A DNA stretch of 64,000 bases from Haloprofundus halophilus (GTDB lineage Archaea; Halobacteriota; Halobacteria; Halobacteriales; Haloferacaceae), in NCBI RefSeq assembly GCF_003439925.1, contig NZ_QQRR01000002.1:744001-808000 (forward strand), read 5' to 3'. A program made the position numbers and the translations under genes. Within the stretch, counting starts at the first letter, position 1; the number at the start of each line of letters is the position of its first letter. Of this stretch, positions 52,946 through 62,394 are shown in pieces. The notes beneath the pieces were generated by a model. It did no database searches and was not told the origin of the DNA. It was given only the letters and a program-made list of their open reading frames with translations.

Positions 52946-54169
52946 TCAGTCGAACTGGTCGAGCGTTGTCGCCTCGCCGGCGCGGACGTCGTTGACGAGC
53001 GCGCCCTCGATGTCGAGGCCGAGTTCGTCGGCCGCGGCGCGGCCGACCGCCCCCGCCACGTCGGCCGGCGCGTAGACGCCGAGTCGCCACTGGTTCTTCT
53101 GGGCGGTCCGGAGCGCGTTGACCAGCGGCGACTGTCGACCCAACTGTCGAATATCGCCGTTGACGACGACTCGACTCGTCGACTCTCTCATCGACGGTTT
53201 GGCGGGGACGTCGACGACGACGTGTTCGGGCTCGACGCCGACGGCGTCGGCGACGCTCGCCTCGACCTCGCGAATCTCCCCGTGAGGCGCGTCCAGAACG
53301 GACTCCGGTACGTCGGAGAGTTCGGCCCAGACGCCGCGCTTGTAGAGGTCCCGGCCGTCGAGGCGGCGGGCGAACTCGGCGGTCTCGTCGATGTTCCGGA
53401 GCGCGACGAGCAGGTCGTGGTCGTCCATCCGCCGGAGTCGCTCGGCGGTACAGTCCGTGTCGGCGAGGAGATGCTCGGCGGCGCGTCGCAGCATCGCCTT
53501 CGAGATGCGCGCGACCGGGTGCTGGTAGACGGTCGGGTTCATCAGCGCGCGAGCGACGAGCAGGCTCTCTGCGGTCTGGACGTTCCCCTCCGCGAGCACC
53601 AACTCGCCGTCGACGAACGTCAGTTCGCGGACGAGCCGCTCGTGGTCGATGGTGCCGTAGGGGACGCCGGTGTGGTGGGCGTCGCGGACGAGGTAGTCCA
53701 TCCGGTCGATGTCCAGTTCACCGGAGACGACCTGCCCGTACTTGCCTTCGCCGCGAACGAGTTCGGCGACGCGTGCCGGCTCCAGGTCGTGGTCGCGCAG
53801 CACCTCGCCGACGGTTCCCTCGGCGAGCAGTTCGTCGACGTCGTCGTGGTACTTGCCCGTGTGACGGTGCGTCAGCGCCTCGACGTTGTGACTGAACGGG
53901 CCGTGACCCACGTCGTGCAGGAGGGCGGCGGCACGGACGCGCTCGGCGTTCATACCCTCGACGCCGAGGTGGTCGAGCGCGCGGGAGGCGAGGTGGTAGA
54001 CGCCGAGGCTGTGCTCGAAGCGCGTGTGGTTCGCGGAGGGGTAGACGAACTGCACCGTCCCGAGCTGCTTGATGTGGCGGAGCCGCTGGACCTCCCGCGT
54101 GTCCAGCAGCGCCGCGGCGACGCCGTCGACCTCGATGTGGTCGTGGACGCTGTCCTTGATGGTGATCAT
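52946..54169 (-). CDS. HD-domain phosphohydrolase (SAMHD1/dGTPase-like), copy 1
   Basis: A 407-residue HD protein. 'RHIKQLGTVQFVYPSANHTRFEHSLGVYHLASRALDHLG' contains the first His of the HD site (FEH, His about 53), and 'AALLHDVGHGPFSHNVE' the HD pair (85-86), with 'DYLVRDAHHTGVPYGTID' further on. This is the SAMHD1/dNTP-triphosphohydrolase pattern of the COG1078 group, so it may hydrolyse dNTPs. ATG 54169 (MITIKDSVHD) is preferred over 54190. The neighbour at 54280 is a paralogue on the same strand with a 110-base gap. Confidence 0.9.
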   Translation of the reverse strand: MITIKDSVHDHIEVDGVAAALLDTREVQRLRHIKQLGTVQFVYPSANHTRFEHSLGVYHLASRALDHLGVEGMNAERVRAAALLHDVGHGPFSHNVEALTHRHTGKYHDDVDELLAEGTVGEVLRDHDLEPARVAELVRGEGKYGQVVSGELDIDRMDYLVRDAHHTGVPYGTIDHERLVRELTFVDGELVLAEGNVQTAESLLVARALMNPTVYQHPVARISKAMLRRAAEHLLADTDCTAERLRRMDDHDLLVALRNIDETAEFARRLDGRDLYKRGVWAELSDVPESVLDAPHGEIREVEASVADAVGVEPEHVVVDVPAKPSMRESTSRVVVNGDIRQLGRQSPLVNALRTAQKNQWRLGVYAPADVAGAVGRAAADELGLDIEGALVNDVRAGEATTLDQFD

Positions 54170-54279
54170 TGGTGGGCGATTCGGCGTCACCGCTTAAAAA
54201 CGGTCGGAGGTGCGGGTCGTCGTTCCCGTCCGCCCTCGCCCCCCTCGCCCCCTTCAGTCGGACGAACCGCTCGGAAGGC

Positions 54280-55437
54280 TCAGTCGTCGATGTCGAGTAT
54301 CGCGGCCGCGGCGTCGCCGACGGCCTCGACGTGTTCGTCGGGCGCGTACACCCCGAGTCGCCACTGCGCGCGTTCGGTGTTTCTGAGCGCGCCGACGAGT
54401 TCGGAGGCCTCCTCCAGCCGCCGGACCGTGCCGTCGACGACGACGTGGGTTTCGGACTCCTTGAGCGCCGGTCGGCTGGGAACGTCGACGATGACGTCGT
54501 CCGGGTCGACGCCCGCCGCGTCGGCGACGTCGCGCTCGGCGGCGCGAACGTCGTCGTGGCCGAGGTCCGGGACCCACGCCGGAACTTCCCAGAGGCCGGC
54601 CCAGACTGCGCGTTTGTACAGGTCGCGGCGCTCGATTCGTCGACCGAAGTCGGGCACCTCCCTGCCGAGTTCGACGAGCAGGTCGTGGTCGGCCATCCGG
54701 CGGAACTTTCGGACACTGAGGTCGGTCTCGTCGAGCAGGCGCTCGGAGGCGCGGTCCAACATCGCGCCCGCGATTCGCGAGACGTGGTGGCGATAGACGA
54801 CTCCGTTCATGAGGCTGCGCGCGAGGAGCATGCTCTCGGCGGTCTGGACGTTCCCCTCGGCGAGGACGAGGCGGCCCTCGCGCAGTCGGAGCGCGCGGAC
54901 GAGGCGGCCGTGGTCGATAGTGCCGTAGGGGACGCCGGAGTGGTGGGCGTCGCGGACGAGGTAATCCATCCGGTCGACGTCCAGTTCGCCCGAGACGAGC
55001 TGGCCCAGGTCGCCCTCGCCGCGGACGAGTCCGGCGACGCGCTCGGGGTCGAGGCCGTGGGCCCGGAGTACGTCGCCGGCGGCCGACGAGGCGAGCAGGT
55101 CGCCGATTTCGTCGTGGTGCTCGCCCGTCCGGCGCATGATGACCTCCTCGGTCTGGTGGCCGTAGGGGCCGTGACCGATGTCGTGCAGCAGCGCGGCCGC
55201 GCGGACGTGCGCCGCCCGGTCATCGTCGACGCCGAGGTGGTCGAGCGCGCGGGAGGCGAGGTGGTAGACGCCGAGACTGTGCTCGAAACGCGTGTGGTTC
55301 GCCGACGGGTAGACCAGACGCACGGTGGAGAGCTGTTTGATGTGTCGAAGCCGCTGCAGTTCGGGCGTGTCGAGGAGGGCGCGGGCGACGGGGTCCACCG
55401 AGATGTAGTCGTGGACGCTGTCCTTGATCGCGTTCAT
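54280..55437 (-). CDS. HD-domain phosphohydrolase (SAMHD1/dGTPase-like), copy 2
   Basis: A 385-residue paralogue of copy 1 that keeps all HD motifs ('NHTRFEHSLGVYHLASRALDHLGV', 'AALLHDIGHGPYGHQTEE', 'DYLVRDAHHSGVPYGTID'). The 28-residue 'YPSANHTRFEH...' core is identical, while the C-terminal third differs, so the pair may have divergent regulation or substrates. ATG 55437 (MNAIKDSVHDY) is chosen; upstream in-frame codons are Pro/Thr-rich and run toward cofD. Confidence 0.9.
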   Translation of the reverse strand: MNAIKDSVHDYISVDPVARALLDTPELQRLRHIKQLSTVRLVYPSANHTRFEHSLGVYHLASRALDHLGVDDDRAAHVRAAALLHDIGHGPYGHQTEEVIMRRTGEHHDEIGDLLASSAAGDVLRAHGLDPERVAGLVRGEGDLGQLVSGELDVDRMDYLVRDAHHSGVPYGTIDHGRLVRALRLREGRLVLAEGNVQTAESMLLARSLMNGVVYRHHVSRIAGAMLDRASERLLDETDLSVRKFRRMADHDLLVELGREVPDFGRRIERRDLYKRAVWAGLWEVPAWVPDLGHDDVRAAERDVADAAGVDPDDVIVDVPSRPALKESETHVVVDGTVRRLEEASELVGALRNTERAQWRLGVYAPDEHVEAVGDAAAAILDIDD

Positions 55438-55568
55438 GACGCCCGACTTCGCAATCGGAGAACAAATAGCCGTCTCACTCGGTGTCGGGGGTGAGTCGGG
55501 GCGAGTCGGCGTCGGAGGCGTCGCCGTGAAGGCCAGATACAAATCGTTGCCCGGTCAACCTCCGGCAA

Positions 55569-56564
55569 ATGGTCACCTTTCTCGCCGGCGGGACGGGCAC
55601 CCCGAAACTGCTCGACGGGCTCGGGGAGTCGAGATTCGACCCGAGCGAGACGGTCGTCGTCGGCAACACCGGCGACGACGTCGAACTCGGCGGCGTGCTC
55701 GTCTGTCCCGACCTCGACACGGTCTTGTTCGACGGCGGCGGCGTCCTCGACCGCGAGCGCTGGTGGGGAATCGACGGCGACACCACCGAGACCCACGAGG
55801 AGCTCCGCCGTCTCGCCGACGCCGCCGGACTCGACGACGGCCCGCGGTACCTCCCCGACGGCGCGCAGACGAGCGGGCGAGAGATCGCCCGTTGGCGACG
55901 CTTCTCGGGCGTCGCGGAGTTCATGGAACTCGGCGACAGGGACCGAGCCGTCCACGTGACGCGGACGAGTCTCGTGGACGAGGGCCACAGCCTCACCGAA
56001 GTCACCCGGATACTGGCCGACGCGTTCGGCCTCGACGTGACGCTGCTCCCGATGTCTGACGACCCCGTCGCCTCCGTCGTCCACACCGACGAGGGACCGA
56101 TGCACTTCCAGGAGTACTGGGTCGCTCGCCGCGCCGACCCCGCGGTCCGCGACGTGGAGTTCCGCGGAGCCGACGACGCCGGGCCGACCGACGCGGTGCT
56201 CGACGCGCTCGCCGCGCCAGTGGTCGTCGGTCCCTCCAACCCCGTGACGAGCATCGGTCCGATGCTCGCGGTTCCCGGCATCTGCGAGGCGCTGGAGTCG
56301 ACGCCGGTAGTCGCCGTCTCGCCGTTCGTCGAGGACACGGTGTTCTCCGGCCCCGCCGCCGAACTGATGCGCGGTGTCGGCTACGAGGCCAGTACCGCCG
56401 GCGTCGCCGAGGCGTACCCGTTCGCCGACGCGTTCGTCCTCGACGACGACGACGGAACCGAACTCGACCGGCCGGTCGTCAGAACCGACACGAAACTCGA
56501 CGGTCCCGACGACGCCGCGCGCGTGCTGGGCGCGGTCGAGACTGCACTGGAGGCGGTCTCGTGA
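55569..56564 (+). CDS. cofD: 2-phospho-L-lactate (enolpyruvyl) transferase for coenzyme F420
   Basis: A 331-residue CofD. It joins a lactyl or enolpyruvyl-phospho-guanosine donor to Fo to make F420-0. The N-terminal '[18 protein letters not shown]' is the GDP-binding loop, '[23 protein letters not shown]' is highly conserved, and '[21 protein letters not shown]' marks the Fo site. It is the first gene of a four-gene operon in which every junction overlaps by 4 bases. A GATACAAATC element near 55537 is at promoter distance. Confidence 0.95.
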
Positions 56565-57394
56565 GCGCTCCCAACCGGAGAGCCGAGCGACCGCCGCTCC
56601 GCCTCGCCGCCGCGAGCCTCAGCGGCGTGTCAGACTCCGAGTGGGCGAACGCGGCCGCTCCATACGTCGACGCGGCATTTCTCGGCGGTATCGCGTTGGA
56701 CGGCGTCTCGCGGGAGGCGGCGCGCGAACTCGTCGACCGCGGGCGCTCGGAGTTCCTCCCCGACGACCCGCTCTCGTTCGTCGACGCCGAGCTACGAGCG
56801 CTCTCCGACGCGCCGATTCGCGTCGGCGTCAACGTCCGCAGCGCGACTGTCTCGCCAGTTCGGGCAGTCGCGACCGTCTGCAGCGACCACGGTGCGATAC
56901 TGGAACTCAACGCCCACTGTCGCCAGGACGAACTCCTCGCGGTGGGATGCGGCGAGGCGCTTTTGGCCGACACCGACCGCCTCTGTCGGTACGTCGCCGC
57001 CGCGGCCGAGACCGGTGCGACCGTGAGCGTGAAGACCAGAACGGAGGTCTCGGGCGTCGACCTCCCGGAGACGGCCCGGCGCGTGGCCGACGCCGGCGCG
57101 ACGATGTTCCACGTCGACGCGATGGACTCCGAGCACGTCGTCGGCGAGGTCGCCGCGGCCGTCGGCGACGACCTCTACCTCGTCGCCAACAACGGCGTCC
57201 GCGACGCCGCCAGCGTCCGCGAGTACCTCGACTACGGCGCCGACGCGGTGAGCGTCGGGCGGCCGAGCGACGACCCCCGCGTTCTGAAGCGGGTGCGCGC
57301 CGCCGTCGACGAGCGGTTCGACGCGGACGATTCCGACGAATCCGACCCGTCCGACGATTCCGACGGATACGACGAATCGGAGGTCCCGGCGTGA
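56561..57394 (+). CDS. Dus-like FMN TIM-barrel protein in the F420 operon
   Basis: A 277-residue TIM-barrel protein resembling tRNA-dihydrouridine synthases. The catalytic Cys region reads '[23 protein letters not shown]' (NAHC instead of NMGCP), followed by '[11 protein letters not shown]' (FMN-binding Lys) and '[31 protein letters not shown]' (phosphate-binding). The altered active site and the pairing with cofactor genes leave room for a role other than tRNA modification. An acidic Ser/Asp tail (about 250-277) is probably disordered. It overlaps cofD and the next gene by 4 bases each. Confidence 0.8.
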
Positions 57395-58224
57395 CGCCCG
57401 CCGAGAACGCGGAGCTCGCGCTCCTCCTGGAGGTCTCGAGCACGCCGAAACCGGGCAACGTCGACCGAAATCGAGATCTGGACGACCTGCGGTTCGAACA
57501 TTTCCTCGCGGGTGCCGTCGGGTCGAGCGAAGGGCTCCGGATGGCCGCCGACGGCGCCCCCGTGGGGGCGGCGTTCGAGCGCGCCGTCGAGGGGATGAGT
57601 CGACAGGGCGGCGGCAACACGCAGTTCGGGTGTCTGTTGCTGCTCGTGCCGCTGGTGAGAGCCGCGGCGGAGAACGGCGACCTCACGCCCGAGACGGCGA
57701 CGAGCGTCGTCGAATCGACCACCGTCGCCGACGCCGCGGCGTTCTACCGCTCGTTCGAACACGTCGACGTCGCCGTCGACGACCCGCCGCACGACGCCCC
57801 CGAACTGGACGTTCGACGCGGGAGCGACGCGGTTCCCGCGCTCGAGTCCCGGGGACTGACGCTGTACGACGTGATGGAACTGAGCGCCGGCCGCGACGGC
57901 AACGCCCGCGAGTGGACCGGCGGGTTCCGGCGGACGTTCGCCGCCGCCGACGCGATCTGCGACGACGACGGTCCCGTTCCGGACCGCGCGGCGCGGGCGT
58001 TTCTCGACCTGCTCGTCGAGGAACCGGACACGCTCGTCGCCACCCGACACGGCGAGGAGGTCGCCGCCGCGGTTTCGGGGTGGGCCGCCGACGCTCGCGG
58101 CGACGAGGCGGCGACGGAGCGACTGGCGGAGGCACTCGTCGCCGAAGGTGTGAATCCGGGAACGACCGCCGACATCACCGCCGCGGCGCTGTTCGTCGCG
58201 CTCGAACGGGGGCTGCGCGTGTGA
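57391..58224 (+). CDS. CitG/MdcB-like triphosphoribosyl-dephospho-CoA synthase family protein
   Basis: A 277-residue helical protein starting at GTG 57391 (GTGA overlap). 'LLLEVSSTPKPGNVDRNRDLDDLRFEHFLAG', 'SRQGGGNTQFGCLLLLVPL' and the C-terminal 'AEGVNPGTTADITAAALFVAL' are the CitG family signatures. Bacterial CitG makes the prosthetic-group precursor of citrate lyase from ATP and dephospho-CoA. No citrate or malonate decarboxylase subunits are nearby; the partners are cofD, a Dus-like flavoprotein and DUF447. The archaeal branch may therefore act on a different nucleotide cofactor. Confidence 0.88.
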   Translation: MTPAENAELALLLEVSSTPKPGNVDRNRDLDDLRFEHFLAGAVGSSEGLRMAADGAPVGAAFERAVEGMSRQGGGNTQFGCLLLLVPLVRAAAENGDLTPETATSVVESTTVADAAAFYRSFEHVDVAVDDPPHDAPELDVRRGSDAVPALESRGLTLYDVMELSAGRDGNAREWTGGFRRTFAAADAICDDDGPVPDRAARAFLDLLVEEPDTLVATRHGEEVAAAVSGWAADARGDEAATERLAEALVAEGVNPGTTADITAAALFVALERGLRV

Positions 58225-58907
58225 GTGACGAACGCGGGGGCGGCGGAAGCGACCGGAGCGACCGAAGCGACCGAAGCGGCGGAAGCGACCGAAGCGGCGG
58301 AAGCGACGACGAGACGGACGCCGAATGGCCCGTCGAACTCCGAGGCGTCACGGAGTCGGTGGTGACGACGCTCGGGCCGAACGACCTGTGGAACGTCGCG
58401 GCGCTCGGGGTTCGCGCGCCCGCCGCTTCGGATACCTCGGCGACGGCGACGACGTGGGGGAACACCCGGACGCGCCGGAACTTCCACCGGCAGGGTGAGG
58501 GCGTCGTCCAGTTCGTCACCGACCCGCGGACGTTCGTCGCCGCCGCGGTGACGATACGCGAGGAGACAGAGCCAGTTCTCGACAGCGCCGACGCGTGGGT
58601 TCGCGTGGAAACCGACTGCGTCGACAGCGAGGAGCGCGGAGAGACGACGGTCGAGCGATGGGAACTCCGCCCCGTGGAGTCGGCCGTGGTCGAGACGGGC
58701 GTGCGAACCATCAATCGAGGGTTCTACGCCGTCGTTGACGCGACCGTCGCGGCGTCGCGGTTGGACGTGTCCGCTTACGACACCGACGCGCTGTTAGACC
58801 GCCTCACCTACTTCGAGGAGACGGTCGAGAAGTGCGGCGGCGACGCCGAGCGGGAGGCGTTCGAGCGGCTGAGCGCCGAGACGGGATGGCGGAAGCGACG
58901 CGATTGA
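58221..58907 (+). CDS. DUF447 family protein (predicted FMN-binding)
   Basis: A 228-residue protein starting at GTG 58221 (4-base overlap). A low-complexity Ser/Asp/Arg/Gly N-terminus (about residues 5-35) precedes the DUF447 domain, with 'VVTTLGPNDLWNVAALGV', 'TTWGNTRTRRNFHRQGEGVVQFVTDPRTFVAAAV' and 'RTINRGFYAVVDATVAASRL'. Structures of the family show a PNPOx-like FMN barrel; no reaction is known. The repeat-coded linker is unusual and probably specific to this lineage. It closes the cofD operon. Confidence 0.88.
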   Translation: MSDERGGGGSDRSDRSDRSGGSDRSGGSDDETDAEWPVELRGVTESVVTTLGPNDLWNVAALGVRAPAASDTSATATTWGNTRTRRNFHRQGEGVVQFVTDPRTFVAAAVTIREETEPVLDSADAWVRVETDCVDSEERGETTVERWELRPVESAVVETGVRTINRGFYAVVDATVAASRLDVSAYDTDALLDRLTYFEETVEKCGGDAEREAFERLSAETGWRKRRD

Positions 58908-59026: not shown

Positions 59027-59221
59027 ATGGCTATCAAACCCAAGTACGTCAAGCAGATGGGAACGCTGCTGCTGGAGAAGTACCCGCAGGCGTTCAACAC
59101 CGACTTCGAGACGAACAAGGAGAACGTCGACAAACTGACCAACGTCGATTCGAAGGGCGTCCGCAACCGCATCGCGGGCTACGTCACGCGCAAGAAGCAA
59201 TCGCAGGCGGCCGCAGCGTAA
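59027..59221 (+). CDS. rps17e: 30S ribosomal protein S17e
   Basis: A 64-residue ribosomal protein. It has the S17e pattern 'KPKYVKQMGTLLLEKYPQAFNTDFETNKENVDKLTNVDSKGVRNRIAGYVTRKKQ' and normal archaeal length. It belongs to the small ribosomal subunit and is not in a ribosomal operon here. A TTTTAGTG element centred near 59000 lies 27 bp upstream of ATG 59027, which is leaderless, consistent with strong expression. Confidence 0.97.
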   Translation: MAIKPKYVKQMGTLLLEKYPQAFNTDFETNKENVDKLTNVDSKGVRNRIAGYVTRKKQSQAAAA

Positions 59222-61437: not shown

Positions 61438-62394
61438 ATGACCGACCCGGATATCGTCGTGCTGCGACAGAAGATTCACGGCCTCTCTGCGGAGGCGTAC
61501 GCCGAGACCCTGCGCGAGCGACTCCCCGATTACGACGTCGCGCTGGCGAAGACGCCCGCCGAAGAGCGCGAGTTCCTTCGGACGGCGCGCGTCGCCACCG
61601 GCTTCTCGCTCGACGCCGACGAGCTGGACGCCGCGCCGAACCTCGAACTGTTCGCCTGCGTCTACGCCGGGACGGGGCATCTGGACCTCGACGCCTTCGC
61701 GGAGCGGGGCGTCGCCGTCACCAACGCCTCGGGCGTTCACGGGCCCAACATCGCGGAGTACGCCCTCGGCGCGATTCTCTCGTTCGCCCGCGGGTTCGAC
61801 ACGGCGTGGCGACGCAAGGAGCGCGCCGAGTGGCGGTCGTACCAGGCCACCGAACTCCAGGGAAGCCGAGTGACCGTCGTCGGCCTCGGCGCTATCGGGG
61901 AGAGTATCGTCGACCGCCTCGCCCCGTTCGGCGTCGAGACGGTGGGCGTCCGCTACTCGCCGGAGAAGGGCGGCCCGACGGACGAAGTGTACGGCTTCGA
62001 CGAGATACACGAGGCGCTCGCCGACAGCGACTACGTCGTCGTCGCCGCGCCGCTAACCGAGACGACAGAGAAACTCATCGACGCGGAGGCGTTCCGGACG
62101 CTGCCGCCGCACGCGGTGCTCGTCAACGTCGGCCGCGGTCCCATCGTCGACACCGACGCGCTCGTTTCGACACTCCAGACGAACGGTCTCCGCGGCGCGG
62201 CGCTAGACGTGACCGACCCCGAACCGCTCCCGCAGGAACATCCGCTGTGGTCGTTCGACAACGTGCTCATCACGCCGCACAACGCGGGCCACACGCCGAA
62301 GTACTGGGAGCGCCGCGCGGACATTATCGCGCGGAACCTCGACAAGGTCGAGGAGACGGGCGAGTTCGAAAACTTGGAGAATCAGGCGGATTAG
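61438..62394 (+). CDS. D-2-hydroxyacid dehydrogenase
   Basis: A 318-residue NAD-dependent dehydrogenase. The cofactor loop is 'VTVVGLGAIGESIVDRL', and the catalytic residues are Arg in 'NVGRGPIVDTDAL', Glu in 'DVTDPEPLPQEHPLW' and His in 'ITPHNAGHTPKY'. It would reduce a 2-keto acid to the D-hydroxyacid or do the reverse. Phosphoglycerate, glyoxylate and lactate are possible substrates; the sequence does not decide. ATG 61438 gives the family-like start, with a CATACC element 26 bp upstream. Confidence 0.93.
   Translation: MTDPDIVVLRQKIHGLSAEAYAETLRERLPDYDVALAKTPAEEREFLRTARVATGFSLDADELDAAPNLELFACVYAGTGHLDLDAFAERGVAVTNASGVHGPNIAEYALGAILSFARGFDTAWRRKERAEWRSYQATELQGSRVTVVGLGAIGESIVDRLAPFGVETVGVRYSPEKGGPTDEVYGFDEIHEALADSDYVVVAAPLTETTEKLIDAEAFRTLPPHAVLVNVGRGPIVDTDALVSTLQTNGLRGAALDVTDPEPLPQEHPLWSFDNVLITPHNAGHTPKYWERRADIIARNLDKVEETGEFENLENQAD

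Follow-up and report, generated by a model that had tools for sequence, protein, structure and literature searches.

We analyzed a 64-kb stretch of a haloarchaeal genome (G000, contig 2, positions 744001 to 808000; hereafter, the window) and focused on an operon of four plus-strand genes encoding the coenzyme F420 biosynthesis enzyme CofD, an MJ0144-type flavin barrel related to Dus, a CitG-like protein, and a DUF447 protein. We found that the citG-like gene and the DUF447 gene are the indivisible unit of this operon. The pair probably represents a conserved biosynthesis module for a tetrahydromethanopterin (H4MPT)-type cofactor that works with a homologue of MptG and is separate from the rest of the operon. 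We are considerably more confident that the CitG-like and DUF447 proteins act in the same pathway as MptG.

All four open reading frames were confirmed as real genes (Table 1), and at every junction the stop codon overlaps the following start codon by 4 bases. An earlier reading of this DNA, made from the letters alone (the sequence-only reading), had described these overlaps as ATGA or GTGA; overlaps are indeed present at all three junctions, but each is GTGA and none is ATGA. To assess gene order, we counted adjacencies across 118 genomes from the order; all four genes are present in 99. The four are contiguous in 87 of these 99 genomes, showing that the order is conserved beyond chance. Counted pairwise, adjacency holds in 100 of 104 genomes for cofD and dus, in 90 of 99 for dus and citG, and in 106 of 106 for citG and DUF447; breaks of the operon never fell between citG and DUF447 and always occurred at the other junctions. 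In family f4, for example, the operon is split at the dus/citG junction, and in three loci that lack dus (L085, L086, and L074) cofD lies directly 5′ of citG. The pairing is clearly not confined to this genus, which would have spoken against the sequence-only reading: across the phylum, citG and DUF447 are adjacent in 119 of the 137 genomes with both. The nonadjacent cases are mostly family f11 drafts that have retained both genes at separate positions, and thus, the link between citG and DUF447 does not rest on position alone.

We then determined the pattern of gene loss in 98 haloarchaeal genomes that were at least 90% complete. CitG and DUF447 were absent only from the same three genomes (G008, G060, and G119), and MptG (TIGR00144, beta-ribofuranosylaminobenzene 5′-phosphate synthase) was likewise missing from these three; the only other genome without it, G209, is a 170-contig draft that has no Mch either. 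The co-loss of the pair and MptG has a hypergeometric P value of ~3e-5, counted by genome rather than by loss event. In G000, the mptG homologue is located at position 443258 of the same contig, ~357 kb from the operon (~801400), indicating that the loss of mptG is a separate event. In a tree built on concatenated CofD and Dus-like proteins, G119 was nested in genus g7 with a support of 100, and G008 and G060 formed another lineage whose sister, G225, retains the genes, so the triple loss happened twice independently. The site of the operon in G060 reads cofD-dus-rpS17e-asd, with dus directly followed by rpS17e; in G119, ~1.2 kb without detectable similarity to citG or DUF447 separates dus from rpS17e. 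Because MptG is lost and kept together with the CitG-like and DUF447 proteins, we argue that the three (hereafter, the triad) are functionally tied, and because the pair tracks MptG, we place it on the methanopterin side.

The other two genes of the operon did not follow this pattern. CofD was present in 98 of 98 genomes, and the barrel gene was kept in all three genomes that lost the pair. Conversely, G018, G154, G233, and family f32 are without the barrel gene yet have citG-DUF447, MptG, and CofD. The operon therefore combines two or more functional units, and cofD is functionally separate from the citG-DUF447 pair. The sequence-only reading had proposed a shared cofactor pathway for all four proteins, CofD of F420 synthesis included. 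From this proposal, we retain that the CitG-like and DUF447 proteins belong together; CofD and the barrel, with their independent loss patterns, are not part of it, and the link to F420 is not upheld, since CofD is kept where the pair is lost and the pair tracks MptG instead.

To extend these observations beyond haloarchaea, we scanned 14 named control genomes for each family. MptG and DUF447 were matched in the same four genomes, those of Methanocaldococcus jannaschii, Haloferax volcanii, Sulfolobus acidocaldarius, and Methanosarcina acetivorans, and CitG was matched only in these four archaea and in Escherichia coli, the latter with a real citrate lyase operon. In the same scans, CofD was not found in S. 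acidocaldarius, which has CitG and DUF447. Methanogen loci display the order barrel-citG-DUF447, and in several of them, a dihydromethanopterin reductase gene comes next (TIGR02700, 321 and 328 bits, cutoff of 251); in L052 and L054, a dihydropteroate synthase-like gene lies within 3 kb (TIGR00284 for L052). Compared with the methanogen cluster dus/mmp9-citG-DUF447-dihydromethanopterin reductase (L051, L049, and L078), the haloarchaeal operon shares the order of the barrel, CitG-like, and DUF447 genes but has cofD in front and lacks both the reductase gene and the methanogenesis marker 9 domain (TIGR03277) of the barrel. In methanogen-group genomes G096, G056, and G144 and in family f25, matches to the MptG model were weak or absent despite the presence of CitG and DUF447; MptG is perhaps divergent or replaced in these genomes.

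In Proteobacteria, the CitG-like gene lies 3′ of mch and myfB, and DUF447 overlaps a dihydropteroate synthase-like gene and mfnB. Among bacterial CitG loci with full flanks, MptG was found within 10 kb in 57 of 58 and Mch likewise in 57 of 58, and DUF447 was present in 28 of 28 tested bacterial genomes. A methylotroph gene island with the order mch-orf5-orf7-fae-orf17 has been described (PMC3615186), in which orf5 is now MyfB (PMC8141765); the bacterial CitG-like gene holds the orf7 position of this island. This agrees with the sequence-only reading, which had placed CitG-like and DUF447 genes together within the archaeal-type one-carbon clusters that methylotrophic bacteria carry. The H4MPT-linked one-carbon islands of methylotrophs, which include orf19-orf20-afpA-orf21-orf22 (PMC3615186), thus carry the same CitG-like and DUF447 families alongside MptG, and DUF447 also shares 4-base overlaps with its neighbors there. 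In the haloarchaeon studied here, in contrast, citG and DUF447 are adjacent and lie behind cofD, with genes for Fae, MtdB, or methanofuran absent from the vicinity, and haloarchaea are described as folate users. Overall, the CitG-like protein, DUF447, and MptG co-occur as the parts of an H4MPT module should.

The CitG-like protein matched PF01874 above the cutoff but scored only 18 to 23 bits against the CitG/MdcB equivalog models (TIGR03125, 18.4 bits, cutoff of 272.3; TIGR03132, 18.8 bits, cutoff of 282.4). It shares with E. coli CitG (CitG/CitX of citrate lyase, b0613/b0614) the fold family and, in the alignment, all of the core motifs KPGxVD, NTxxG, and PGxxAD; it differs in falling far below the CitG/MdcB cutoffs and in having no CitX or lyase genes adjoining it. 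Among the annotated neighbors of its relatives, there were no lyase or CitX genes, although the genome as a whole was not searched for citrate or malonate lyases. A structure has been solved for one relative (3H9P), and a library of anti-phage defense systems gave no match to the CitG-like protein. Our literature search found no paper joining CitG with archaea and methanopterin or triphosphoribosyl with methanopterin.

Both DUF447 domains, PF04289 and PF20766, were matched above their cutoffs. The structure model of the protein (mean predicted local distance difference test score of 88.6) was nearest to 2IML and 2NR4, which are DUF447 proteins described as bound to flavin mononucleotide (FMN), followed by NAD(P)H-flavin reductases. 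The protein is thus predicted to adopt an FMN split-barrel fold, with FMN binding predicted from the crystals of its relatives. It has the Pfam domains and predicted fold of the DUF447 structures 2IML, 2NR4, 2PTF, and 3B5M but is at most 28% identical to them and carries an Asp/Ser-rich N-terminal extension of ~40 residues. Two DUF447 copies each were observed in the bacterial genomes G246 and G264.

On the basis of the known chemistry of CitG and CitX, we propose a route for the triad. In methanopterin, an aryl-ribityl chain is alpha-bonded to ribose 5-phosphate, and a phosphodiester links the latter to 2-hydroxyglutarate. MptG uses p-aminobenzoate and phosphoribosyl pyrophosphate (PRPP) to make an aryl C-riboside, and the later ribosylation is usually assumed to be, and may indeed be, PRPP dependent as well. 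CitG transfers the triphosphoribosyl group of ATP to dephospho-coenzyme A through an alpha bond, releasing adenine, and CitX converts the CitG product to a phosphodiester with the release of pyrophosphate. This parallel with the structure of methanopterin suggests that the CitG-like protein ribosylates the aryl-ribityl arm with ATP. In the proposed route, MptG would first join PRPP and p-aminobenzoate into the aryl C-riboside. DUF447 would then carry out an FMN-dependent reduction on the aryl arm, most simply a reductive ring opening that converts the ribofuranose into the ribityl chain; the para-amino group would assist departure of the benzylic C-O bond. The CitG-like protein would next transfer 5-triphosphoribosyl from ATP to a ribityl hydroxyl, releasing adenine and supplying the alpha-linked ribose 5-phosphate of methanopterin, with the triphosphate as a ready donor for the phosphodiester, as in the use of the CitG product by CitX. 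The haloarchaeal end product would be an H4MPT-like or a shortened aryl-ribityl compound. By analogy with CitG, a ribosyl transferase function of the CitG-like protein is plausible, at somewhat less than even chances. The assignment of DUF447 as a ring-opening reductase is more tentative, and it could equally serve some other reduction of the route.

Taken together, the results suggest that part of the methanopterin route still operates in haloarchaea. Several points weigh against this interpretation. Haloarchaea have been described as tetrahydrofolate users without methanopterin-specific enzymes, and synthesis of ribofuranosylaminobenzene 5′-phosphate (RFAP) by the MptG homologue HVO_2628 was considered improbable (PMC8305020). 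The haloarchaeal MptG scored 186 bits against the NF040726 equivalog model, below the cutoff of 328. A special condensing enzyme was not found in a PF00809 search; a second Pterin_bind protein, considered as a second dihydropteroate synthase for this step, was rejected because its pattern does not follow the triad. Mch was likewise rejected as a dependent user of the cofactor because it is kept in genomes that lost the triad. The haloarchaeal correlation rests on two loss events only, and the neighboring citG and DUF447 genes may vanish in one deletion. Families f27 and f34 have MptG and DUF447 with no CitG detected, in genomes that are only 58 to 78% complete, and the bacterial sample consists of Proteobacteria with the cluster only. 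As to MptG, the bacterial H4MPT-cluster protein also fell below the NF040726 cutoff, with only 151 bits, and haloarchaeal MptG keeps the motifs common to the methanogen and bacterial members, to which it is ~26 to 35% identical. Its gene neighbors (a KaiC/ArlH-like ATPase, a coiled-coil protein, TFS, and IlvD) were not informative, and our literature search found no paper linking haloarchaea with RFAP. Either a methanopterin-like compound has been overlooked in haloarchaea, or the aryl-ribityl product of their triad is shortened or different. It is possible, but doubtful, that haloarchaea make a methanopterin-like cofactor that has escaped detection, or its ribosylated aryl-ribitol half, via MptG, DUF447, and a CitG-like protein that is a previously unassigned methanopterin ribosyltransferase and uses ATP as the ribosyl donor.

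We considered four other explanations. The haloarchaeal triad might have been repurposed to make some other aryl or C-riboside metabolite with no role as a one-carbon carrier, which would fit the missing condensing enzyme, the independence of Mch, and the role of folate as the described carrier (PMC8305020); however, the three families and the adjacency of the pair are the same as in H4MPT makers, nothing positive speaks for another product, and we regard repurposing as unlikely. Service of the pair in methanofuran or methylofuran synthesis, rather than on the pterin side, is suggested by the bacterial clusters, where DUF447 overlaps mfnB and the CitG-like gene comes after myfB, but it is improbable given that the pair tracks the pterin-side MptG in haloarchaea and adjoins dihydromethanopterin reductase in methanogens. 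That the CitG-like protein is a true dephospho-coenzyme A triphosphoribosyl transferase, making the prosthetic group of a citrate lyase- or malonate lyase-like carrier, would explain the PF01874 match and the motifs common with E. coli CitG; the scores far below the CitG/MdcB cutoffs, the H4MPT genes and absence of lyase genes at the loci of its relatives (with no genome-wide lyase search made), and the co-loss with MptG render this highly improbable. The least probable explanation is a single F420-tied pathway in which all four proteins act on a shared cofactor: the 4-base overlaps, the contiguity in most haloarchaea, and the dus-less loci with cofD before citG favor it, but we rejected it on the loss pattern, in which CofD, although universal, stays without the pair in three genomes and the barrel and pair are lost independently. 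The S. acidocaldarius pair without a detected CofD, the bacterial pair loci in H4MPT clusters, and the split between dus and citG in f4 also speak against it.

Table 1. Features of the operon and its 3′ flank (positions in the window)
Feature	Position	Strand	Basis
cofD (operon gene 1), 2-phospho-L-lactate transferase for F420 synthesis	55569-56564	+	TIGR01819, 369.1 bits
MJ0144-family flavin triosephosphate isomerase (TIM) barrel (Dus-like)	56561-57394	+	PF01207, 37 bits; TIGR00736, 131 bits
NAHCRQ motif of the barrel, residues 117-122	56909-56926	+	Family alignment
CitG-like (PF01874) protein	57391-58224	+	PF01874, 221 bits
KPGNVD motif of the CitG-like protein (E. coli CitG, KPGLVD)	57448-57465	+	Alignment
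GGNTQFG motif of the CitG-like protein (E. coli CitG, GVNTHKG)	57610-57630	+	Alignment
NPGTTAD motif of the CitG-like protein (E. coli CitG, SPGGSAD)	58153-58173	+	Alignment
DUF447, FMN-binding split-barrel family protein	58221-58907	+	PF04289, 73.9 bits; PF20766, 66.8 bits
rpS17e, 3′ flank of the citG-DUF447 pair	59027-59221	+	

The identity of CofD is certain, as its TIGR01819 score exceeds the equivalog cutoff of 257.45. The barrel scored below the TIGR00736 cutoff of 218.7 and reached only 18.5 bits against the DusB equivalog model TIGR00737 (cutoff of 293), although Dus catalytic domains were closest to its predicted fold. Of the residues of its NAHCRQ motif, the family alignment shows A, H, C, and Q to be invariant, including the catalytic-loop Cys of the Dus type. 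In the region past the barrel, which in Dus forms a C-terminal helical tRNA-binding domain, the model contains a single helix (residues 239 to 259) and then a low-confidence tail. Methanogen homologues of the barrel carry a Cys-rich C-terminal methanogenesis marker 9 domain (152 to 176 bits, TIGR03277 cutoff of 96), and none was found on the haloarchaeal barrel proteins. In methanogen loci L047 (5759-6886), L048 (5927-6877), and L051 (5886-7028), the gene in which marker 9 is fused to the MJ0144-type barrel lies directly 5′ of citG-DUF447, which ties marker 9 to the neighborhood of the pair.

Further observations concern the surroundings of the genes. In L081 (6764-8367, family f27), cofD lies directly 5′ of DUF447, and in L079 (6667-8429, haloarchaeal family f34), mptG directly abuts DUF447; no CitG was detected in either locus. 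Divergent from cofD, the window contains two tandem, mutually similar HD-domain phosphohydrolase-like proteins, recognized by eye from their translations (52946-54190 and 54280-55542, both on the minus strand). A D-2-hydroxyacid dehydrogenase-like gene (61438-62394, plus strand) recurs close to rpS17e/asd in haloarchaea (L035, 13093-14088; L083, 10232-11188) and is present also in one genome that lost citG-DUF447.

A 2011 gene inventory of Methanothermobacter estimated that seven proteins of methanopterin synthesis were still unknown (PMC3087415). Our analysis puts forward two specific families as candidates for the non-pterin arm of methanopterin, one of them with chemical precedent in CitG. 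It also puts in question the view that haloarchaea retained nothing specific to methanopterin. All the families occur in H. volcanii, a genetically tractable species.

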